Assembly (NCBI RefSeq): GCF_003259185.1
Contig: NZ_QGMP01000001.1
Location: 2,418,001-2,482,000 of the forward strand
Direction: 5' to 3'
Length of the DNA: 64,000 nt
DNA from: Isoalcanivorax indicus
GTDB lineage: Bacteria; Pseudomonadota; Gammaproteobacteria; Pseudomonadales; Alcanivoracaceae
Under the pieces are notes generated by a model that was not told where the DNA came from, did no database searches, and saw only the letters and a list, made by a program, of their open reading frames with translations. Position numbers and translations under genes: made by a program. Shown here in pieces: positions 10,007-36,165 of this stretch. Position 1 is the first letter of the stretch. The number at the start of each line of letters is the position of its first letter.

Positions 10007-10266
10007 GCGGGCGTGAGTGTGGGAATGTAAAAGAAAGCGTTTACGAATCAGTCGGTTAGATGATTATTGCCATGGGTGGGGGGATGTGGGAGCGGGAATG
10101 CCCGAACGTTATCAGCGAGGTGGCGTCAGCTTGTGAGAAGTTACATTAACTTTTAGATCAATTGGGAATATAGGGGCGCCAAAATGATGTCATGGTGACA
10201 TATCAGACCCGCTGGCGGACGGCAGTCCCACAGGGGGGCGCTGCCGCCAGCAGGCGAACAGAAGAA
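10007..10266. other. Intergenic region between the dcw promoter and rnpB
   Basis: About 260 bp without a convincing gene. It is more AT-rich near 10130-10190. An imperfect inverted repeat lies at about 10211-10251 (arms GCTGGCGG and CCGCCAGC), just downstream of the rnpB 3' end. It may act as an rnpB terminator or processing signal, but no T-run follows it. Confidence 0.4.
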
Positions 10267-10640
10267 GGTGGATCAACCGATAAGCCGGGTTCTGTCGTGG
10301 ACAGTCATTCATCTGGGACCGACGTCGCCGTCGGCCTCTAGCGACCTACCCGGTTCCAGCGCGGGCCACGCCATGGGAACCCTATTTGGTCTTGCTCCGA
10401 GTGGGGTTTACCCTGCCACGTCTGTTGCCAGACGCGCGGTGCGCTCTTACCGCACCTTTTCACCCTTACCTGTGCACCGTTTCCGAAGAAGCGGGCCATC
10501 GGCGGTATCTTCTCTGCGGCACTTTCCGTAGCCGTACCGTCGCCAGTACGGCCCCCAGGCGTTACCTGGCACCCTGCCCTGTGGAGCCCGGACTTTCCTC
10601 CAGCAATACGAGATTGCCAGCGACTGTCTGGTTGATCCGG
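10267..10640 (-). ncRNA. rnpB: RNase P RNA (bacterial class A)
   Basis: Catalytic RNA that matures tRNA 5' ends. The two termini form a perfect P1 helix: GGATCAACC near the 5' end pairs with GGTTGATCC near the 3' end (plus-strand positions 10630-10638 and 10270-10278). The universally conserved GAGGAAAGTCCGGGCTCC block lies close to the 5' end (about 10585-10603). The conserved ACAGAACCCGGCTTATCGG block lies at the 3' end (about 10277-10296). A TACACT -10-like box lies just upstream of the 5' end. The length, about 374 nt, fits gammaproteobacterial type A RNase P RNA. The ends are uncertain by a few bases. Confidence 0.96.
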
Positions 10641-23974: not shown

Positions 23975-24514
23975 ATGCGGCAGAGCGAGGCCATCAAAAG
24001 ACTCACAGACTGGGACCGTCGCGGGAGATACGTCTTTGCCGCAGCGGATATGGCGAAGGTGTTTGCTGAGGACTCGCCCAGAGGCCGGGAAGCCACCCTG
24101 ACCCGCCTGGTTCGCGAGGGCCTTCTCGAACGGCCCTCCAAAGGCGTGTACCTCTACGCCCTCTCGCGCCACAAGGGCCCGGATACGCTTGAACTGATTG
24201 CCAGAACCCTGCGACGCGGCGCCTACAATTACATCAGCCTGGAATCAGCCCTGTCGGAGTACGGCGTGATTTCCCAGATCCCGGTGGGCCGCCTCACCGT
24301 CATCACCACCGGCCGCAAGGGTGAATACTCAACGCCCTACGGGGTCCTTGAATTCACTCATACGCAGCGCTCTGTTTCGGATATCTTGCGCTCCACGCTT
24401 GACCGAGACCGGCCCTTGAAGATTGCAACAGTGCAAGCGGCGTTAAGAGATTTGAGGCGCGTGGGCAGGAATATGCATCTGGTGGATGAGGAGGTGGTCT
24501 ATGAGCAAGCGTGA
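23975..24514 (+). CDS. AbiEi-family antitoxin (type IV toxin-antitoxin)
   Basis: A 179-residue antitoxin. The N-terminal winged-helix part (about residues 1-60, TLTRLVREGLLERPSKGVYLY) is expected to bind its own promoter. The C-terminal part (YISLESALSEYGVISQIPVGRLTVITTGRKG) is typical of AbiEi. The 3' end overlaps the toxin gene by 14 bp, so the two are translationally coupled. AbiE systems abort phage infection; the antitoxin acts without binding the toxin directly (family knowledge). Confidence 0.86.
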   Translation: MRQSEAIKRLTDWDRRGRYVFAAADMAKVFAEDSPRGREATLTRLVREGLLERPSKGVYLYALSRHKGPDTLELIARTLRRGAYNYISLESALSEYGVISQIPVGRLTVITTGRKGEYSTPYGVLEFTHTQRSVSDILRSTLDRDRPLKIATVQAALRDLRRVGRNMHLVDEEVVYEQA

Positions 24515-25436
24515 TAATCAGGATTTCCAATACCTGGTTGCTCAAGCCATGGAGAACCCGGGCCTGGCCAACATGCGGCCGGTGGTAGAGAAAGAGCTTC
24601 TGCATTACGACATCCTGTTTGCGCTCGATCGCCACCAGCTTCTTGATGACATCGTCTTCCAGGGCGGCACGTCCCTCAGACTGTGCTACAACGGCAACCG
24701 CTTCAGCGAAGATCTCGACTTTGCCGGAGGCGCGGATTTTTCATCGCGCCAGCTCAAGGATATGAAAGCGTGTATCGAAGACCACCTGGGCCAGCGCTAT
24801 GGGCTTGAGGTCACCGTCAAGGAGCCCGCATCACTCAGAGCAGAGACCGCCCGTAACGGCATTAATGTCGACAAATGGCAGATCAGAATCGTGACGTCCC
24901 CGGAGCAGCCGGACCTGCCCAAACAGCGGATAAAGCTGGAAGTAGCGAGCATCCCGGCACACACACGAGAAGCCCGCCCACTGTCACGGAACTATGCCTT
25001 TCTTCCAGACGGCTATAACGATGTGTTGATCATGGTAGAGACAAAAGCCGAGATCATGGCCGACAAGCTGGTCTCCCTGCCCGTTGGCTCAGACCCGGAG
25101 AAACGGGTGCGGCATCGCGACATATGGGATCTGGCCTGGCTTCACAGGCAAGGCACCCGGATGGATGTGGATATGGTACGGAGGAAAATCGATGATTACC
25201 TTGTTTCAGATTATGATGACAAGGTCGTCCGAATGATAGAGTGGCTTCCAGACATCATCAGCGGGCGTGCCTTCCTGGATGAAATGAAGCGATTTGTTCC
25301 TAAAGACGTATATGAGCGGACCCTGGGTCAGGATAAGTTTTCTACATTTTTGCTGACCAACATTCGGGAGCAGCTGATTGATGTGAGGAACTCATTGCAA
25401 GGAACTCGCACTGAGGCACCTCTATTCAAGATGTAA
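24501..25436 (+). CDS. AbiEii-family nucleotidyltransferase toxin
   Basis: A 311-residue toxin of the AbiEii/AbiGii family. The start at 24501 has GGAGGTGG upstream. The polymerase-beta-type nucleotidyltransferase motif is GGTS at residues 55-58, with SEDLDF carrying catalytic Asp71 and Asp73. Further family motifs are MADKLVSL and RDIWDLAWL. It forms a type IV toxin-antitoxin operon with the preceding gene. The array begins 126 bp after its stop, so read-through into the array is possible. Confidence 0.88.
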   Translation: MSKRDNQDFQYLVAQAMENPGLANMRPVVEKELLHYDILFALDRHQLLDDIVFQGGTSLRLCYNGNRFSEDLDFAGGADFSSRQLKDMKACIEDHLGQRYGLEVTVKEPASLRAETARNGINVDKWQIRIVTSPEQPDLPKQRIKLEVASIPAHTREARPLSRNYAFLPDGYNDVLIMVETKAEIMADKLVSLPVGSDPEKRVRHRDIWDLAWLHRQGTRMDVDMVRRKIDDYLVSDYDDKVVRMIEWLPDIISGRAFLDEMKRFVPKDVYERTLGQDKFSTFLLTNIREQLIDVRNSLQGTRTEAPLFKM

Positions 25437-25562
25437 TAAACTTGATTAGTACCTGAAAATAGTAATGGGATATTCGGCCAACATTGAGGATACTCTACAT
25501 ACTGGCACGCACAGGGAAGCACTATCACTTGACTGACTGCATACTGATCCATCCGCGCGCCT
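25437..25562 (+). other. Region between abiEii and the CRISPR array (possible array promoter region)
   Basis: 126 bp without a gene, more AT-rich than the core genome. Because the array is inferred to be transcribed on the plus strand, a promoter is expected here. Partial matches (TTGATT at 25442, TTGACT at 25529) lack a well-spaced -10, so no promoter is claimed. No intrinsic terminator was seen after abiEii. Confidence 0.4.
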
Positions 25563-25599
25563 ATTCCGGTTTCCCGCCAGCCAAAATTTCGATAAGCTC
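25563..25599 (+). repeat. Degenerate terminal CRISPR repeat
   Basis: Matches the consensus repeat at 29 of 37 positions. The last 12 bases (TTCGATAAGCTC) are intact and the mismatches lie between positions 1 and 25. Repeat decay usually marks the oldest, acquisition-distal end of an array. Confidence 0.9.
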
Positions 25600-25629
25600 C
25601 TAGCAGGGGCGCCGTACAGTTATTGACAC

Positions 25630-25673
25630 GTTCCGATTCCCCATTCCCCACCATCGGAAAGTTCGATAAGCTC
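25630..25673 (+). repeat. Variant 44-bp CRISPR repeat with a 7-bp tandem duplication
   Basis: Otherwise consensus, but ATTCCCC is duplicated head to tail inside the repeat, lengthening the loop between the CCGAT and ATCGG arms. Confidence 0.95.
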
Positions 25674-26008
25674 CTTTACGGTGGAACACCTCGGTCAGTA
25701 ACAGTTCCGATTCCCCACCATCGGAAAGTTCGATAAGCTCAGGTTTTAGTACCACCTCATTATGGCTGGAGTTCCGATTCCCCACCATCGGAAAGTTCGA
25801 TAAGCTCAATCCCCGGTTAGGTGAAGCGCAAGCGCTAGTTCCGATTCCCCACCATCGGAAAGTTCGATAAGCTCGCTTTTCTTTTTATATCAGTTAGTTG
25901 CATAGTTCCGATTCCCCACCATCGGAAAGTTCGATAAGCTCCCGGCGGTAAGCAGGTGCAGCGGCCCGATCGTTCCGATTCCCCACCATCGGAAAGTTCG
26001 ATAAGCTC

Positions 26009-26343
26009 CGTTCTGCGCGCGACTACAATCCCCTGGAGGTTCCGATTCCCCACCATCGGAAAGTTCGATAAGCTCAAGAAAGCCCGCGCAGCCCTCGCCA
26101 AAGCAGTTCCGATTCCCCACCATCGGAAAGTTCGATAAGCTCGTGACGGGCTGCGGCGCCGACACCACGGCGGTTCCGATTCCCCACCATCGGAAAGTTC
26201 GATAAGCTCCGTTCTGCGCGCGACTACAATCCCCTGGAGGTTCCGATTCCCCACCATCGGAAAGTTCGATAAGCTCAAGAAAGCCCGCGCAGCCCTCGCC
26301 AAAGCAGTTCCGATTCCCCACCATCGGAAAGTTCGATAAGCTC
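26009..26343 (+). repeat. Duplicated two-spacer block inside the array
   Basis: Spacers at 26009-26038 and 26076-26105 recur unchanged at 26210-26239 and 26277-26306, with one different spacer (26143-26172) between the copies. This is best explained by recombination between repeats, not independent acquisition. Confidence 0.95.
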
Positions 26344-28828
26344 TCTTGTTCTTCGTCGGCTTTGTTGCCTATGGTTCCGATTCCCCACCATCGGAAAGTT
26401 CGATAAGCTCCGTGGGGAACGCAATACATCGGGTGGGCCTGTTCCGATTCCCCACCATCGGAAAGTTCGATAAGCTCCCCGGCGTCTGCCGCCTGCCCTG
26501 CCGCCTCGTTCCGATTCCCCACCATCGGAAAGTTCGATAAGCTCGGCAGCTCGCGCACCGCGACCGAGAGGAGTGTTCCGATTCCCCACCATCGGAAAGT
26601 TCGATAAGCTCGCCCTCCCCCTCGGCCCGCAAGGGTGGCCGGTTCCGATTCCCCACCATCGGAAAGTTCGATAAGCTCAGTGTCTCCAGGGTAATGGCCG
26701 CCTCAGTGGTTCCGATTCCCCACCATCGGAAAGTTCGATAAGCTCGACCGGATCAACGCAAAGCGGATATATGTCGTTCCGATTCCCCACCATCGGAAAG
26801 TTCGATAAGCTCGTTTGACCTTCATCCCCTGCACCAGACCTTGTTCCGATTCCCCACCATCGGAAAGTTCGATAAGCTCCGCTCCGCGCGCGACTACAAT
26901 CCCTTGGAAGTTCCGATTCCCCACCATCGGAAAGTTCGATAAGCTCCGAGTTTGTGCCAACGCTGCCTGAGTTCTTGTTCCGATTCCCCACCATCGGAAA
27001 GTTCGATAAGCTCCATAATTACACGGTCATGAGGATAAACTTCGTTCCGATTCCCCACCATCGGAAAGTTCGATAAGCTCTGCCGGGCAAAGCTACGGCG
27101 GGAACCACGGGTTCCGATTCCCCACCATCGGAAAGTTCGATAAGCTCGTCGGGGCGGTCTCCCAGGTAATTTTCTGGGTTCCGATTCCCCACCATCGGAA
27201 AGTTCGATAAGCTCCGCTCTGCGCGCGACTACAACCCGTTGGAGGTTCCGATTCCCCACCATCGGAAAGTTCGATAAGCTCCTTTTTCATATCGGCCATG
27301 GCGCGCTGGTAGTTCCGATTCCCCACCATCGGAAAGTTCGATAAGCTCCGCGAGGTGTCGAACCCCCTTGAGGCGATCGTTCCGATTCCCCACCATCGGA
27401 AAGTTCGATAAGCTCGGAATTCATGGTGAGCAGGGAGGCAAGAACGTTCCGATTCCCCACCATCGGAAAGTTCGATAAGCTCCACCGCACCAGGTGAATA
27501 CGCAATCCAGGAGTTCCGATTCCCCACCATCGGAAAGTTCGATAAGCTCGAGAATAAAACAATCCCATAACTGCCCTTAGTTCCGATTCCCCACCATCGG
27601 AAAGTTCGATAAGCTCGAGGCGGCGCTGGACGCCATCGACGATCTGGTTCCGATTCCCCACCATCGGAAAGTTCGATAAGCTCGGCGCAGCAGTCCATCC
27701 AGCAGGTCGGCCTGTTCCGATTCCCCACCATCGGAAAGTTCGATAAGCTCCTGGAACACTTCGAGGGCTGCGTGTACGTCGTTCCGATTCCCCACCATCG
27801 GAAAGTTCGATAAGCTCCCATTCTTCACGAGCGTGACCGGCTTCGCCGTTCCGATTCCCCACCATCGGAAAGTTCGATAAGCTCCTTTGCGGCACACCCA
27901 CAAGATGCGCTCCGGTTCCGATTCCCCACCATCGGAAAGTTCGATAAGCTCCGCCAACGGTGGCAGGGTCTGGGCCGAGGTGTTCCGATTCCCCACCATC
28001 GGAAAGTTCGATAAGCTCCTACGAACAGTGGTCCCCCGTCGATATGCCGTTCCGATTCCCCACCATCGGAAAGTTCGATAAGCTCCTGCATATGTGCAAC
28101 GTGGATCATTTCATAGTTCCGATTCCCCACCATCGGAAAGTTCGATAAGCTCCCTGCCGGTGAAAATGCGCGTCATCATACCGTTCCGATTCCCCACCAT
28201 CGGAAAGTTCGATAAGCTCAAACAAGTGGTCCATGTGATGTTTTTCTCGGTTCCGATTCCCCACCATCGGAAAGTTCGATAAGCTCGTTGATGCGACCAT
28301 TTTGGTTCCTTGGTTGGTTCCGATTCCCCACCATCGGAAAGTTCGATAAGCTCTTCGGCCCTTGCACCTTGATGTTGGACAGCGTTCCGATTCCCCACCA
28401 TCGGAAAGTTCGATAAGCTCGCTTCATCTGGCAAGCCGTCAAACGGCAAAGTTCCGATTCCCCACCATCGGAAAGTTCGATAAGCTCCACGGCGCAAGCT
28501 CATGCGGTGAGACGCCGGTTCCGATTCCCCACCATCGGAAAGTTCGATAAGCTCCGGGCGAGTTGACGCGCCAGTAAGGGCATGGTTCCGATTCCCCACC
28601 ATCGGAAAGTTCGATAAGCTCACCTATGATGGCCGTTACATCGACCCGCAGGTTCCGATTCCCCACCATCGGAAAGTTCGATAAGCTCCTGCTCAAGGAC
28701 GGCATGCTGCTGCGGCCTGTTCCGATTCCCCACCATCGGAAAGTTCGATAAGCTCCACCTGATGCGCGTCGCGGCCGTCGTGTGGGTTCCGATTCCCCAC
28801 CATCGGAAAGTTCGATAAGCTCTGAATC

Positions 28829-28860
28829 AACCTAACCCTTTGTCAGGGTTAGGTTTTTCT
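28829..28860 (+). terminator. Intrinsic terminator of the CRISPR array
   Basis: 10-bp perfect stem (AACCTAACCC with GGGTTAGGTT), 7-base loop, then TTTTTCTT on the plus strand. It begins 7 bp after the last repeat and abuts the 3' end of cas2, so it would stop array transcripts before they run antisense to cas2. No T-run on the minus strand. Confidence 0.88.
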
Positions 28861-28861
28861 T

Positions 28862-29170
28862 CTATATCAGCATGATCTGGTCTGGCGCATCAGGTCTTTG
28901 CTGTTTAGGGCGCGGGCCAAGAAACTCGCGGGTCATGGCGTATTGCTTGTCTGTCATGAGCATAAAAGCAACCTTGGCATCGCTCGGAATCTGGTGTTTC
29001 AGACGCTGGATCATGGCCTCAGCGGCGGCCATCGTGGGAAAGTGACGAACATAAAGAGAGTATTGCACCTGTATAAACGCGTTCTTTAACAGACGCTTAC
29101 GGAATACAGTGTACTCATGCCGAGCTTCCGGCGTGGTCATGGGGCAGTCATAAACAGCAATTAACCACAT
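28862..29170 (-). CDS. cas2: Cas2, CRISPR adaptation protein
   Basis: Subunit of the Cas1-Cas2 spacer integrase. The preferred start at 29170 gives 102 residues beginning MWLIAVYDCPMTTPEAR, with GGAGAG just upstream. An ATG 8 codons earlier (29194) is possible but has an untypical N-terminus. Asp8 in VYDCP is the usual conserved acidic residue, and SLYVRHF is the second family motif. Last gene of cas9-cas1-cas2. Confidence 0.94.
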   Translation of the reverse strand: MWLIAVYDCPMTTPEARHEYTVFRKRLLKNAFIQVQYSLYVRHFPTMAAAEAMIQRLKHQIPSDAKVAFMLMTDKQYAMTREFLGPRPKQQRPDAPDQIMLI

Positions 29171-29197
29171 GACTCTCCATCCGTTGATTGCCATGGC

Positions 29198-30121
29198 CTA
29201 TTGCGGGCGCTCAGGCAGCAGCAACTTTCGGCGGCGCCCCACCCCTCCCGCCTCCAGAATCCGGAGGTAGCTCGCGATGGTTTTTCGTATCGCAGCTGGT
29301 AGGCGAAAATCCTGATCGCCAAGGCGCACATTCTGCTCAAATAAACCGGAGATAATCTGCCTGCGGTGTTCCGAGGAAAACTTCTCCCCCTTATGAGGCG
29401 GGCGCGATACCACCAAGCGCTCCACTAGAAACCGATACGGCTCTAAAAAATCATCAGCCAGATTGAAAGGGTTCTCGGTACTTCTGTGCCCCACACCCAA
29501 CTCAGGGCGCAACGCCGCCTGGGCTAACTCTCGCGTGATCAATGAGCGCAACAGGGAGTACCCGAAATTAAGGTGGATATTAATCATGTCCTTAGCATCG
29601 CGTTTTTTACGCTTGAACGGTTGATCGAAGAGACTATCCCAGTACAGCCTGGCGCCCTGTCCCTCAAGGTGCCCCGCATCCCCCGGTTCAACCAAACCAG
29701 CCAAGCGAGCCAGCCTGGCAGCCGGCGCCCTTCCATAAGCCTCAAGCACCCAAGACTGACTACGCAATCTGGCAGAAACCAGTTGCTGCCAAACCAGTGC
29801 GTGCAGCTTACTCCTATCCAGCTCAATCTGCTGTCGCAAGCGAACAGTCGCGTGAGGACGGCCAAAGGTCGGTAGCATCATGCCAGATGGTTGATGCTGG
29901 TCATCCACAACTAAAATAGCCGCACCAGATTCCGTCAACCTTCGTAACACATGCACAGACAACTGCACCGTATGATGGTGGAGACAAAGTACAGCAATAT
30001 CGGAAGGACGTATCCGAATGGGCTCTTCGCCGGCCCGACTAATCTTCAAGCACTCAAGGTGAATATTGAGCGCACATGGATTCTCGATCAGAAGGACATG
30101 ATGCTCGGACATACTGCGCAC
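29198..30121 (-). CDS. cas1: Cas1, CRISPR spacer integrase (type II)
   Basis: Metal-dependent integrase for spacer acquisition, acting as Cas1-Cas2. The 307 residues hold the catalytic set E153 (LEGQGARLYW), H212 (GVGH) and E227 (DDFLEPYR), within the length usual for type II Cas1. Its ATG directly follows the cas9 stop; a second Met at residue 4 is an alternative start. All catalytic residues are present, so it is likely active. Confidence 0.96.
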   Translation of the reverse strand: MRSMSEHHVLLIENPCALNIHLECLKISRAGEEPIRIRPSDIAVLCLHHHTVQLSVHVLRRLTESGAAILVVDDQHQPSGMMLPTFGRPHATVRLRQQIELDRSKLHALVWQQLVSARLRSQSWVLEAYGRAPAARLARLAGLVEPGDAGHLEGQGARLYWDSLFDQPFKRKKRDAKDMINIHLNFGYSLLRSLITRELAQAALRPELGVGHRSTENPFNLADDFLEPYRFLVERLVVSRPPHKGEKFSSEHRRQIISGLFEQNVRLGDQDFRLPAAIRKTIASYLRILEAGGVGRRRKLLLPERPQ

Positions 30122-33100
30122 CTACACCGGCCTGAAATTCAGAAGCCCCTTTCCTGAAACTTTTTTTAGCCCCCACTTGCTGTCAAGATCACGCACTGGT
30201 CGCGTTTCGGTCACCGGTGCCATAACCAACATACCACCACCTTGCGCTTTAATCTGATGAATGACATAGCGCATACCGCTATTTTTATTCTCAACTGTGT
30301 CACTCTTATAGAAACGAACAACTCCTTCCTTAGTGTCATGAAGTTTTATCTTGCAGCCTTCACGGGGCCTAACGAGGTTAGGGTTTCCAACCAAGCCCCC
30401 TGCCTCAACATGCAACTCCATATAAGCGTAACCATCATTCAAAAGATACTTATAATGTAGTCCCTGTCTACTATTATGCTCAATTCGAACATGATCTGAC
30501 GCTTTGGAAGCGTAACAGCGGACTTTCCTGAGAATATTGCCCTGGAACTCAATCGGCTCCCGCAGCGCCTGCTGCGGTGTCATTCCGGAGTTAACACGCC
30601 TTTCAAATACACTCCGGACATGAAGGCGGACACCCTCGCCTACGATGTCATCTATATTTTTCCTAACCTTATCGGCACTCCACTTATCTGGTGCCAGCGA
30701 AGTCAAAGGTTCTCGCTTGACCAGCCACTCTTCTGGCTCTCCGGTCGCCGGATTCATGCGTTTCTCCAAGCCATACGCAGTGTCTTGAAAGAAGCGACCA
30801 TCCGGATATCGATCCGGCTTGTGGCTAATGCGGCACTCTCGCACCGCTGCAAGCGCCACATCACGAATATTAGGCACAGGGACAGGCAGCTCAACCCTCA
30901 CGTTTATACTCCCATTCTTGCGCTCTTCCTCCGCAATTCTCCAGGCATTGGCATAGCGCTGATACAGGCTTCGGGACGTCAATGCAATCACAATGGCATC
31001 TATCAAGTGGTGTCGATGATCAATTCTCTTGTCCGGGCGACGATCCGTGCGTGTTTCTCTGGTAACAGGGTGCCCCTCCCATTGAGGGCGAAACCTATTA
31101 AATTCCTCATGGGAAATGAGCTCACCGCTTTCATCAACCAGCGGCAGCCCGGTTTCTAAGCGAACTTGGGGAATAACAGTGTCCAACCCCCATCGACGAC
31201 GCAGATTGGCCGTAAGAGAGCCGCGCGAAACATAAACATCGCTACCCAGCGTGGACAACCACTGGGTGGCAACTTTAGCCAGCCAGGAGCTTTCATGAAG
31301 CTGCCGGTCCGAGAACTCAGCAATTGACTTATCAGTAAGAACCTCGCCTTCGAAGTCTTTCATCACAAGAAGATTTGCCTTGCGATATGACTTCTTCTTG
31401 CGCAACGCTTCTGCACGAGCCTCGATAATCTGCCAACGCTTGTCATCCCTTTCACCGAATGCCTGCCAAGGGGTGCGATTACCTTTCTCGTCATTGCAGT
31501 CGCGGTGCGCCAGAACAATCTCAGAGCGTTTGTAACCGACCTGCGTCAATGATCTAGGGAGAATATGCTCAAAGTTTGTATGCGCACCGCTTAACGCATC
31601 ACTTATTCCCAGGCTACTTTCGCAATAGGGGCATTGATGGTTTTGCTCTTCCCACAATTGATAGCGCTTAATAAGCGTAGGAGTGGGCGACTTTCCCGCC
31701 TGAGCAATTCTTTTAGCTGCCTCCTTCCTCTCATTGGAAAATCGCTTGCTTTTCCTTTCCATATCATTACGACGAGTTACTCCGCCTTTCATTTCCCGGG
31801 CAAGCTCAACCACTATCTGAGCTGGAGTGCCTCCATTGGCGTCAATAGCGTTGTTGATGATTACCCTCAGTTGCCGCAAGGCCACGTCAACAACTTCATT
31901 GCCGGTTGACGAGGGCAAGCCTAACCGGCCTACAGCCTCCTCGGCATCTTCGCTCAGATGATCTGGATAGCACTCCCTGATAGCAGCATCCTCATCAACA
32001 CGAGGAATATTCGGCATTTCCTCCCAACTTGGATATTTAAGCCATTTTGTAATCCTAACCAAGGCTTTCACCGAATAACTTGCTCGGCCTGCATCAAAGC
32101 CCATCTTGCTCATGCGATCGAACTTGTCATTCGCCCTGAGCTTATCAATAAAGGATACAAATCCCCGGGAGAAATTTCTTGGCTTGCCCGATTTACCTCT
32201 GAAACGCGAAGGCCAATCATCAACATCCAACTGCTCTGGTGAACCCAGACCTGAAAGGAAATTAATCACCTGAATCTGGGTAACTTCATCGAGGCCCAGC
32301 CAATCCCCCTCCAGCCCAAGTTTACGCCATGCATGTAACGTCGTATTACCTGTTAAGCTATCACGCCCTCCAAGCACTGCGCGATCCATATTCAACCCTT
32401 TCCCTGAAGGCCCTGAGCAACCGGACTTCTCCAGTGCTTTATAAATCGCCTTGAAAGATGCCTCTCTCTGCTTTCCCAGAATAGCACGAACAACCTCTTT
32501 CTGTTCCTCAGAAAGGGTTTCAGAATTTTTCCCCATCCCCCAACGCAAATCGGCGAGTTGCTTCTCTATCCTGAAATCCTGAGCGGCCATTTGAGCCCTT
32601 GGCGCTCTTGGCAAATGAACCTCCAGGGAACATTTACCCACTTTATCTTCGAAAGATTTTAGAGGACGCTGATAGAATATTGCCGCAAAAAGGCTATCCC
32701 GAACCCCCTCTTTTTTTAGAGCTGGATGAAATTCCTTCTGTACATTCCATATCTGATGGAACTCTGCCTCAAGGGACTCACGCAAAGCGTACATATTGGG
32801 CAACTGATGCCGCCCGTCCTCGCGTACTGGAAGGCCAAGGTATTCCCGAAACGCAGGATACTTAGGAGCAATATAATCATTATTAGCTGCAACTTTCAGA
32901 CGAGCAGGCAAACCATACTGAACACGTGCATACAGATATTCACCAACCGTGACACTCTGAACATCTTTCTTTCTCGCCAACGCATCCATTTCTTCAGTCA
33001 GCACAGACGAACCACTCGCGACCACACCAGCATCCCCAGTTTTACTGGCCACCTTCAGAGTCCCTGCATAGCCCCGCTTCTTTGCCATGCGCATCAACAC

Positions 33101-33454
33101 AGCGAACAGTTCGTTCAACTCAATACGTTCTCGGGCGGCTTTTGCCCGAAGGAAAGGAACATCATTGGAAAAAGAGGACGTGTCTGTTTGAACAGGATCG
33201 ATACCGATAAGCCTTGCAGTGTGAGCGACCCGGCGTAAGCGAGAAGCTCGCCGATCAATCTGGCGACGCTGCTGACGTGCCAATCTTCGATCTGCTTTCT
33301 TGGGCTTTAACTGCCCCTTATCGTTTATCAGCGGTTCGGAGAAAAGCCGCTCGTGAAACCAGATCAGCTTCTCTGGCTCGCCTTGCTCATCCATAGAGAA
33401 GGCAGCACAACCAATGGACGCAGTTCCAAGATCAAGTCCTAGTCTATAACGCAT
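30122..33454 (-). CDS. cas9: Cas9, type II-C RNA-guided endonuclease
   Basis: Compact Cas9 of 1110 residues. RuvC-I contains D8 (GLDLGTASIG). The Arg-rich bridge helix is at about 55-76. RuvC-II contains E550 (IVVELAREM). The HNH domain spans about 600-665 with CPYC (C608, C611), catalytic H630 in FEHILPRS and HRDCN at 650-654. RuvC-III contains H816 and D819 (HHLIDAIVIA). A C-terminal wedge/PAM-interacting region follows from about 900. GGGGAA sits 6 bases before the ATG. All nuclease residues are present, so it should be active. The HNH motif has Glu-His where many Cas9s have Asp-His. Local base composition is clearly more AT-rich than the flanking core genes, suggesting transfer. The absence of csn2 and cas4 makes it type II-C. 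Confidence 0.97.
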   Translation of the reverse strand: MRYRLGLDLGTASIGCAAFSMDEQGEPEKLIWFHERLFSEPLINDKGQLKPKKADRRLARQQRRQIDRRASRLRRVAHTARLIGIDPVQTDTSSFSNDVPFLRAKAARERIELNELFAVLMRMAKKRGYAGTLKVASKTGDAGVVASGSSVLTEEMDALARKKDVQSVTVGEYLYARVQYGLPARLKVAANNDYIAPKYPAFREYLGLPVREDGRHQLPNMYALRESLEAEFHQIWNVQKEFHPALKKEGVRDSLFAAIFYQRPLKSFEDKVGKCSLEVHLPRAPRAQMAAQDFRIEKQLADLRWGMGKNSETLSEEQKEVVRAILGKQREASFKAIYKALEKSGCSGPSGKGLNMDRAVLGGRDSLTGNTTLHAWRKLGLEGDWLGLDEVTQIQVINFLSGLGSPEQLDVDDWPSRFRGKSGKPRNFSRGFVSFIDKLRANDKFDRMSKMGFDAGRASYSVKALVRITKWLKYPSWEEMPNIPRVDEDAAIRECYPDHLSEDAEEAVGRLGLPSSTGNEVVDVALRQLRVIINNAIDANGGTPAQIVVELAREMKGGVTRRNDMERKSKRFSNERKEAAKRIAQAGKSPTPTLIKRYQLWEEQNHQCPYCESSLGISDALSGAHTNFEHILPRSLTQVGYKRSEIVLAHRDCNDEKGNRTPWQAFGERDDKRWQIIEARAEALRKKKSYRKANLLVMKDFEGEVLTDKSIAEFSDRQLHESSWLAKVATQWLSTLGSDVYVSRGSLTANLRRRWGLDTVIPQVRLETGLPLVDESGELISHEEFNRFRPQWEGHPVTRETRTDRRPDKRIDHRHHLIDAIVIALTSRSLYQRYANAWRIAEEERKNGSINVRVELPVPVPNIRDVALAAVRECRISHKPDRYPDGRFFQDTAYGLEKRMNPATGEPEEWLVKREPLTSLAPDKWSADKVRKNIDDIVGEGVRLHVRSVFERRVNSGMTPQQALREPIEFQGNILRKVRCYASKASDHVRIEHNSRQGLHYKYLLNDGYAYMELHVEAGGLVGNPNLVRPREGCKIKLHDTKEGVVRFYKSDTVENKNSGMRYVIHQIKAQGGGMLVMAPVTETRPVRDLDSKWGLKKVSGKGLLNFRPV

Positions 33455-33498
33455 ATTCGTTCCCCATTATCCGTAACCCGTAATCTGATCTCACCTTG

Positions 33499-33528
33499 TT
33501 GACACGAGCGCCCTCAGCGCGCTAGCCT
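33499..33528 (+). promoter_or_regulatory. Predicted tracrRNA promoter
   Basis: Perfect -35 TTGACA (33499-33504), 18-bp spacer, weak -10 TAGCCT (33523-33528). Predicted start is near 33535, two bases before the anti-repeat. It is divergent from cas9, so one 80-bp region must hold both promoters. Confidence 0.7.
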
Positions 33529-33534
33529 TTGCAA

Positions 33535-33636
33535 TGTATCGAACTTTCCGATGGTGGGGACCTTCGGTAACAAGATGAGAGCTTCGGCTCGACATCACCG
33601 ATACTGGATAGCCCCTTCGGGGGCTTTCTTTTTTCT
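33535..33636 (+). ncRNA. tracrRNA for Cas9
   Basis: Trans-activating RNA, about 100 nt. The anti-repeat at 33537-33560 is exactly complementary to 24 bases of the plus-strand repeat (repeat positions 9-32). A bulged extension at 33561-33571 pairs with the repeat 5' end (CCGA with TCGG; GTT with AAC). Next come a hairpin at 33574-33596 (GATG/CATC and GAGC-TTCG-GCTC) and a terminator hairpin at 33610-33625. The bulged duplex is typical of type II crRNA:tracrRNA pairs. It lies upstream of cas9 on the opposite strand. Confidence 0.93.
33610..33636 (+). terminator. tracrRNA intrinsic terminator
   Basis: Stem AGCCCC / GGGGCT with a TTCG tetraloop, then TTTCTTTTTTC. It forms the 3' end of the tracrRNA. 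Confidence 0.92.
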
Positions 33637-33738
33637 TGCCCACCATCCTCTCCCTTAATCCCACTGTTCCACATTCTCAAGCCTAGCAAGCTACGCTGCG
33701 CCAGAATGGCACTACCCTTTTGTACAGTGCCCCTGCAA

Positions 33739-34701
33739 TTAACCATACCGCTTCACCGCCTCGCGCAACCTTGCAGCCACCGCCTCTCTCAGCTCCTCCG
33801 GCTCCAACACCTCCACATCAGCCCCGTGTCGCAAGATCTCCTTGATCAGCTCTGTCGGATTCGCGTAGGGCACCGTCAGGTGGTAGTGCTCCCCACGCCA
33901 CTCCCCCTGCTGGTCCGGATGCCAGTGCTCATCCGCCACCCACTGGGCCGCACTGGCATTGAAGCGCAAGTGAGCGTAATCGCGGGCCGGACCCAGAAAG
34001 ATCCCGAAGCTGCCCTCGGTATCCAGCTCCAGTTCCCCATTTGAAAGCTGCCGGGCGGGCCTCTCCTGCGCCACCGGTTGCTCGATCTTGTCCAGGGAGA
34101 ACAGCCGCAGGGCATCGGCCCGGTGGCACCAGCCCAGCAGGTACCAGTTATCACGGTAATGCAGCAGCCGCTGGGGGCTAACCTGGCGCGTTTTGCGTTC
34201 GGCCTTGCTGCGCGCCTGATACTCGAAGCCCAGTTGCCACCCCGCCATCAAGGCATCCGCCACCACCTGGAATGTAGCGCTGTGGACGCTGCGGTAGAGG
34301 ACTGGCTGGACTTTCACGCGGGTGCTGATGTCGGTGTCCCCCCGCCCGCCCGCTTTCAGCAGTTCGCGGATGCGGTCTTTCAGGGGCTTCATCAGGTCTT
34401 CAATGGCGTCGAACTGCAGGCCTTCGAGCATTTGCTGGCAAACCAGCAGAGCATGGAGCTCGGCAGCGGTGAACCACAGGCCGGGGAGCTCAAAGGCGTC
34501 AGCCTCGGGGTCGTAGTAATAGCCGTTCAGTTGCTGGTTGTACTTGATAGGCGCCCGGAAGTGGTCACGCAGGTAGCGGATGTCCTTCCTGGCTGCTCCC
34601 TCGGTGACTTCCATGGCCTCCACCATGCGCCGAAGCGGCACTGGATGGCGGGCGTCACGCAGGGTTTCGTGGATAAGGTAAAGGCGCTCCAGCCGGTTCA
34701 C
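33739..34701 (-). CDS. WYL-domain transcriptional regulator
   Basis: A 320-residue regulator. The N-terminal winged HTH (about 1-60, RLERLYLIHETLRDARHPV...VTEGAARKDIRYL) is followed by a WYL domain with NWYLLGWCHR and a C-terminal WCX-like extension. The chosen GTG start at 34701 has AAGAAGGG upstream and gives the usual VNRLERL N-terminus; an ATG at 34749 is possible. WYL proteins bind nucleic-acid ligands and often sit in defence islands. It is next to the tracrRNA gene, tail towards it, so control of the cas locus is an inference only. Confidence 0.88.
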   Translation of the reverse strand: MNRLERLYLIHETLRDARHPVPLRRMVEAMEVTEGAARKDIRYLRDHFRAPIKYNQQLNGYYYDPEADAFELPGLWFTAAELHALLVCQQMLEGLQFDAIEDLMKPLKDRIRELLKAGGRGDTDISTRVKVQPVLYRSVHSATFQVVADALMAGWQLGFEYQARSKAERKTRQVSPQRLLHYRDNWYLLGWCHRADALRLFSLDKIEQPVAQERPARQLSNGELELDTEGSFGIFLGPARDYAHLRFNASAAQWVADEHWHPDQQGEWRGEHYHLTVPYANPTELIKEILRHGADVEVLEPEELREAVAARLREAVKRYG

Positions 34702-34820
34702 GTGGCATCCCTTCTTGTTGTCGGTCGTGTTACTCGGTCTAACCCCCATATGGATTCAAGCAGATATCGTGATGCGTGTCACACCCTCACCACCTAAATA
34801 TTTGCATATGACGCCACAAT

Positions 34821-34836
34821 AAATTTATATAAATTT
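34821..34836. promoter_or_regulatory. 16-bp perfect AT palindrome upstream of the WYL gene
   Basis: AAATTTATATAAATTT is a perfect inverted repeat, about 120 bp upstream of the WYL start, in the only strongly AT-rich stretch of the 34702-34970 intergenic region. Candidate operator for the regulator. Nothing else was recognised in this gap except the terminator at its right end. Confidence 0.35.
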
Positions 34837-34970
34837 GCGTAAAAAGCATGTTCAGGCCTGTGATATCGACGATGTCGTGGATATGGAGCAAGTACGCAGT
34901 TGGCTTCATGAAGTTAGGGTGTATCTGGGAAGGAGAGTCTGGCGCGGGCGTTGGATTGGCTGGAGGTATG

Positions 34971-34996
34971 AAAAAGGCGGCCATGTGGCCGCCTTT
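34971..34996 (-). terminator. Intrinsic terminator after the acyl-CoA dehydrogenase gene
   Basis: 10-bp perfect stem (AAAGGCGGCC / GGCCGCCTTT) with a 4-base loop; on the minus strand it ends GCCTTTTTC, just downstream of the gene. Confidence 0.88.
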
Positions 34997-35019
34997 GTCG
35001 TTCTGGAACAAGCGTTACA

Positions 35020-36165
35020 TCAGTCCGCCAGAATCTGCTTGGCGATGATGGTCTTCATGATTTCGTTGGTACCGCCGTAGATACGCTGTACGCGGGAGTC
35101 GGCGAACATGCGGGCGATCGGGTATTCCCACATGTAGCCGTAGCCGCCGTGCAGCTGCAGGCACTCGTCGATCACTTCGCACTGCAGGTCGGTGATGTAG
35201 TACTTGGATGCCGCCGCGGTGGGGATATCCAGTTCCTTCTTGAGGTGCAGTTCCAGACAGCGGTCCACATAAGCGCGGCCCACTTCCAGTTTGGTGTGCA
35301 GCTCTGCCAGCTTGAACTGGGTGTTCTGGAATTCAGCGATGCTCTTGCCGAAGGCCTTGCGGTCTTTCACGTAGCGCACGGTCTGCTCGAAGGCACTCTC
35401 GGCCATGGCCAGGCCGTTGATGGCGATGCCCAGACGTTCCTGCGGCAGCTCTTGCATCAGGTAGATAAAGCCCATGCCTTCCTGGCCCAGCAGGGCCTCT
35501 TTCGGCAGGCGCACGTCCTGGAAGAACAGCTCGGAGGTGTCCTGGGCTTTCATGCCCACTTTCTTCAGGTTCTTGCCTTTTTCGAAGCCGGGGGTGCCGG
35601 CGTCCAGCAGAAACAGGCTGATGCCCTTGGCGCCCTTGGTCGGATCGGTCTTGGCCACCACGATCACCAGATCGGCATTCTGGCCGTTGGTGATAAACGT
35701 CTTGGAGCCGTTGAGGATATAGCCGTCGCCGTCCTTGACGGCGGTGGTCTTGATGCCCTGCAGGTCGGACCCGGCAGCCGGTTCGGACATGGCGATGGCG
35801 CCAATGATGTCGCCGGACACCATCTTCGGCAGGTACTTCTGCTTCTGCTCTTCGCTGCCGTAATGCTCGATGTAGGGCGCCACGATCTCCGTGTGCAGGC
35901 CCCAGCCGATGCCGGTCAGGCCGGCGCGGGAAATTTCTTCACTGACCACCACGCTGTAAAGAAAATCAGCGCCCAGGCCGCCGTATTCTTCAGACACCAT
36001 CGGGCACAGGAAGCCCTGCTCGCCCGCCTTGCGCCACAGCTCTTTCGGCACCTGGCCGGTGTGCTCCCATTCTTCGTGGTGCGGCGCAGCTTCGTTCTCC
36101 AGAAACTTGCGCACGGTGTCGCGGAAGGTGTCGTGATCAGACGAAAACAGGGTACGGGGTATCAT
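35020..36165 (-). CDS. Acyl-CoA dehydrogenase (long-chain-type active site)
   Basis: FAD enzyme of fatty-acid beta-oxidation, 381 residues; the start at 36165 has AGGAGAG upstream. FAD-binding features include MSEPAAGSDLQGIKT, FITNGQNAD and LQLHGGYGYM. The C-terminal motif is YGGTNEIM, lacking the catalytic Glu of the YEG type. A Glu in SAFEQTVRYVKDRKAFG (E260) matches the position of the base in long-chain and isovaleryl-CoA dehydrogenases. It is the first core gene to the right of the defence island; its Pseudomonas neighbour on the other side is tas. Confidence 0.9.
   Translation of the reverse strand: MIPRTLFSSDHDTFRDTVRKFLENEAAPHHEEWEHTGQVPKELWRKAGEQGFLCPMVSEEYGGLGADFLYSVVVSEEISRAGLTGIGWGLHTEIVAPYIEHYGSEEQKQKYLPKMVSGDIIGAIAMSEPAAGSDLQGIKTTAVKDGDGYILNGSKTFITNGQNADLVIVVAKTDPTKGAKGISLFLLDAGTPGFEKGKNLKKVGMKAQDTSELFFQDVRLPKEALLGQEGMGFIYLMQELPQERLGIAINGLAMAESAFEQTVRYVKDRKAFGKSIAEFQNTQFKLAELHTKLEVGRAYVDRCLELHLKKELDIPTAAASKYYITDLQCEVIDECLQLHGGYGYMWEYPIARMFADSRVQRIYGGTNEIMKTIIAKQILAD

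Follow-up and report, generated by a model that had tools for sequence, protein, structure and literature searches.

Three spacers in the CRISPR array of Isoalcanivorax indicus encode the same ten-residue peptide, RSARDYNPLE, and differ from each other at silent positions only. We think it probable that this type II-C system acquired them independently, from three tailed phages related to one another and always at the same 30-bp site, which most likely covers the last codons of the gene for the terminase large subunit (TerL). As a rule, a CRISPR array shows no more than what DNA the cell has encountered. For a phage gene whose genome is absent from the searched collections, the three silent variants in this array disclose reading frame, peptide and selection, and the core of the peptide points to the tail of the packaging enzyme. 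The system itself is of a known kind and its biology is ordinary CRISPR biology; what makes the case uncommon and informative is the silent triple, a clean record at codon level.

The array lies at 25563..28822 on the plus strand of the window, i.e., of the whole stretch of 64,000 nt that was analysed, and comprises 49 repeats of 37 nt and 47 spacers of 30 nt, of which 45 are distinct. Two repeats at its left end (25563 and 25637) are degenerate and the remaining 47 are identical. The peptide is encoded on the plus strand by spacer 7 (variant 1, 26009..26038), spacer 20 (variant 2, 26880..26909) and spacer 25 (variant 3, 27215..27244). Their pairwise differences number 4, 4 and 4, and the six variable positions (3, 6, 21, 24, 25 and 30) are all silent. 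Spacer 10 (26210..26239, plus strand) is an exact copy of spacer 7 that came about by duplication within the array: identical stretches of 171 nt start at 25972 and 26173 (span 25972-26343), and in this block spacers 7-8 were copied to 10-11, spacer 8 included (26076 = 26277). Because spacer 10 belongs to this duplication, it is not a fourth sampling of the site and does not count as independent evidence. All other pairs of distinct spacers in the array differ by more than 9 bases in the same orientation, and pairs closer than this are also absent from an array of the same genus (genome G034; 34 distinct of 39 spacers). An earlier note on this DNA gave the coordinates and letters of the RSARDYNPLE spacers exactly, and its claim that they differ pairwise at four sites and still read as one peptide in the first plus-strand frame is confirmed.

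Translation of the three variants in six frames yielded a single common peptide only in plus frame 1. One reverse frame contains a stop and the other four frames give differing peptides, which extends to all six frames the earlier statement that the other frames checked differ. When six random substitutions, 5/6 of them transitions, were put on the consensus in a simulation, one peptide in frame 1 was retained with a chance of 0.00053 and one common peptide in any open frame with a chance of 0.0047; as the silent pattern had been noticed before testing, these figures serve as a guide only. The earlier note had concluded that only purifying selection on a real coding frame explains the pattern. 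That purifying selection acts on a real coding frame is indeed well supported, but "only" is too strong with a simulated chance of 0.0005-0.005. That three related elements were sampled at the same site is likewise well supported. Since all 47 non-degenerate repeats are identical, the differences between the spacers predate acquisition.

The array is adjoined by the gene row cas9-cas1-cas2, which is encoded on the minus strand. It consists of cas2 (28862..29194; PF09827, TIGR01573 above cut-off), cas1 of the type II (NMENI) form (29198..30121; PF01867, TIGR03639 above cut-off) and cas9 (30122..33454; HNH_4, RuvC_III and Cas9_a). The Cas9 protein of 1110 aa contains RuvC and HNH domains and scores 399 bits against TIGR01865 (cut-off 100). 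A tracrRNA is predicted on the plus strand at 33530..33635 (start and end approximate), with an anti-repeat from 33537, a terminator hairpin at 33610-33625 and a predicted anti-repeat:repeat duplex of -54.2 kcal/mol. Neither csn2 nor cas4 was found among the scanned neighbours (WYL regulator, AbiEi, AbiEii and acyl-CoA dehydrogenase). Judged from its sequence, with the Cas9 domains, cas1 and cas2 without csn2 or cas4 alongside and the predicted tracrRNA, the system is a type II-C CRISPR-Cas system. The tracrRNA lies on the plus strand and therefore the crRNA strand is plus as well. The spacer strand is thus the coding strand of RSARDYNPLE, and the PAM is expected 3' of the site.

A terminator-like hairpin with a T-run directly follows the last repeat (28829..28855, plus strand). 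The right flank of the G034 array retains TGAATCA and a hairpin at the same position (28823-28855 here for both), the stem of which differs in sequence yet pairs by eye, while the left flank is not common to the two arrays. Together with the degenerate repeats on the left, this flank comparison suggests the right end of the array as the side of spacer uptake. The type II-C system of Flavobacterium columnare, which tracks coevolving phages, is alike in its cas9/cas1/cas2 locus and probably in an array transcribed from the conserved end; according to that study, crRNA transcription in type II-C starts from this end, spacers that match phages are gained at the variable one and phage protospacers change over time (PMC5524643). 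The four most specific protospacer changes given there are non-synonymous, whereas all six variable sites here are silent, and a single site is represented three times in the array.

Neither the protospacers themselves nor a PAM were recovered. Exact RSARDYNPLE had no match in IMG/VR or in genome_contigs (contigs of at least 3 kb), in scans that may omit records close to the own genome, and the search of phage and prophage proteins that the earlier note had proposed thus returned no exact match in either collection. The 30-nt consensus gave only partial matches to phage and plasmid records, with E-values of 2 or more. The host itself lacks the site: beyond the four array copies there is no match in its own genome, and there is none in 45 genomes of the family. 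The source phage did not emerge from searches of prophage TerLs in that order and family, and of two tail peptides used in tblastn one gave weak matches and the other none. When the whole array stretch was compared with phage records, one credible target emerged, that of spacer 8, and weaker rows were taken as chance; against 390 genomes of the host's order the array gave many weak matches. In the relative G034 the orthologous array (L131, C1:985000-1000000) lacks the RSARDYNPLE spacer family; its repeat ends GATAGCATC and several of its spacers occur more than once. Because the protospacers were not found, we infer the target gene rather than demonstrate it. As for the earlier attribution to one conserved gene, the peptide core points to the 3' end of terL.

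Four scans of IMG/VR for the peptide core (ARDYNPLE, RDYNPLE or ARDYNPL) led to 11 distinct loci. In three of them (L002, L003 and L133) the core forms the C-terminus of TerL according to PHROG matches; the TerLs of L002 and L003 belong to two families and that of L133 ends SRRRDYNPLECV. A further locus, L135, is probably a TerL tail as well: its contig-cut ORF ends LGRDYNPLEAA and lies upstream of a head-tail adaptor gene. Including L135, 8/11 core loci lack an established TerL identity. L139 is another phage protein (phrog_1273), L136 is an 85-aa ORF that ends with the core (RDYNPLEVKE), L134 carries the core inside a 439-aa ORF without family assignment, and in L004, L132, L137 and L138 the core sits in short ORFs that look spurious. 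Seven core matches in genome_contigs proved, once read, to be unrelated ORFs and not TerL.

A related motif is widespread at the end of TerL. Relatives of the L002 TerL have [YH][DN]P in all 11 readable tails (12 loci; read by eye). A profile search of IMG/VR TerLs gave 80 loci, of which 2 were dropped, and the motif [YHFW][ND]P was present in 60 of the 78 readable tails; the stricter RDY[ND]P occurred in only 4/78, one of them L002's own contig. All six named phages that were fetched have the motif. Tails of named phages read TEYDPWK (epsilon15), TDYDPYA (phiV10), HEYDPFA (HU1), STYDPFS (Tr60_Ab31) and TDFDPWG (Carin1), and the TerL of Vibrio phage 1.185.O, which ends RRDYNPLDNMDSDEYL, carries the core at its C-terminus. 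The form [YFH][DN]P[FLYW] is present in numerous epsilon15-like phages (L147-L226, L240-L245), frequently right at the C-terminus of TerL. With a matrix built from 49 distinct tails, the L002 contig excluded, RSARDYNPLE scored 17.8. The runner-up among 270 spacer peptides reached 7.6, and none of 2400 peptides derived from shuffled spacers exceeded 10.8. The matrix is not fully independent, as its family was picked owing to core hits. In the TerL family of L003 a strict RDYNPL-like tail was found in 1/79 readable tails, which is L003's own contig. The seven phrog_5902 loci among prophage TerLs of the host's order include one with a related tail (FDPF). For phrog_2, with 6 loci in the host's family, the matched TerL frame was readable in three, all of which lack the motif. 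The TerL of phage D6E has a short conserved C-terminal arm, for which an interaction with the portal during motor assembly was proposed (PMC5727402). That arm acts through R421, whereas we infer the function of the tail here, and the portion of the D6E account consulted (PMC5727402) does not describe the motif [YFH][DN]P[FLYW].

The constrained coding site at which three related phages were sampled could also belong to a different phage gene, one that has an unrelated tail or motif. The absence of exact RSARDYNPLE from both collections would fit this, as would L136, the short ORF of no known kind, but TerL tails from two families account for 3/11 core loci and the matrix score lies well above the best shuffle (17.8 against 10.8), and we regard another gene as unlikely. 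A more specific form of this explanation would place the target in phrog_1273, a family of small phage proteins, some of which are annotated as Ead/Ea22-like. With 3 mismatches in Salicola phage CGphi29 and 4 in Klebsiella phage Geezett, spacer 8 (26076-26105, identical to spacer 11 at 26277-26306), which adjoins spacer 7, matches phrog_1273 proteins at their C-terminal end, its in-frame peptide being KKARAALAKA against DKARAALAKA in the proteins, and the phrog_1273 member L139 reads SNARDYNPLAEAVLKARAALAKARGE at its end. However, RDYNPL precedes the ARAALAKA tail in L139 only and is absent in CGphi29, Geezett and L140/L146, the last two being a single stretch of one genome. Because the other members that were read lack RDYNPL, this stretch looks unconserved, and L139 moreover has A instead of E after NPL. 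It therefore seems quite improbable that phrog_1273 is the target.

Very little credence is due to the idea that the similar spacers derive from non-coding or unrelated DNA and that the silent pattern arose by chance. The simulated chance for any open frame is small and not nil, but the peptide in the common frame is also recognisable as a TerL tail. It is scarcely plausible, too, that a single acquisition was copied within the array and then drifted by mutation or assembly error. Block duplication does occur in this array, as spacers 7-8 and 10-11 demonstrate, but the 47 full repeats and the duplicated spacers have stayed identical, and drift within the array would not keep to silent sites.

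If the three spacers were indeed acquired independently from terL, the targeted site would encode the C-terminal tail motif RDYNPL. This tail may be functionally fixed by its role in packaging, in which case the site would stay in place in many phages as silent changes build up. The presumed Cas9 seed, formed by the last 12 bases of the spacer on its 3' side, contains four of the six variable sites, and the pairwise differences within it number 2, 3 and 3. Because 4/6 variable sites fall in the presumed seed, an older spacer would probably not work against the next phage variant; each variant would then partly evade it, and the host would gain by adding a new spacer from this site. For 45 spacers, the chance of any triple is 0.16, 0.009 or 0.0006 with 300, 1250 or 5000 usable sites, respectively, all being rough upper bounds. 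Under simple random acquisition the triple is thus unlikely unless usable sites are few, and re-sampling could reflect either biased acquisition or selection after random acquisition. As a tentative proposal, one we hold to be rather doubtful, this could amount to a codon-level arms race, in which the TerL tail pins the protospacer, phages escape only via silent changes in the seed and the host re-samples the site beyond random expectation.

Repeated sampling of one protospacer is described for the type I-C system of Legionella as laboratory priming on one plasmid (PMC5071653); the present system is of type II-C and silent changes distinguish its sampled sites. A literature search that covered few subscription journals found no account of an array with several silent variants of a single protospacer, and we do not claim that none exists in print. 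If re-sampling of protein-constrained sites is general, it shows which phage sites make lasting CRISPR targets and offers a route to assign genes to spacers without any match. Families of silent-variant spacers within arrays could in this way expose coding frames of unseen phages.

The surroundings of the locus contain further genes of note. An AbiEi/AbiEii toxin-antitoxin pair is located immediately left of the array (23975-25436) and a gene for a WYL-domain regulator adjoins the predicted tracrRNA (33739-34749). The defence region at 24001-36000 has a GC content of 0.52-0.55, which is lower than that of most of the window (0.59-0.68). Elsewhere in the window, a class A RNase P RNA is encoded on the minus strand (10265-10639).
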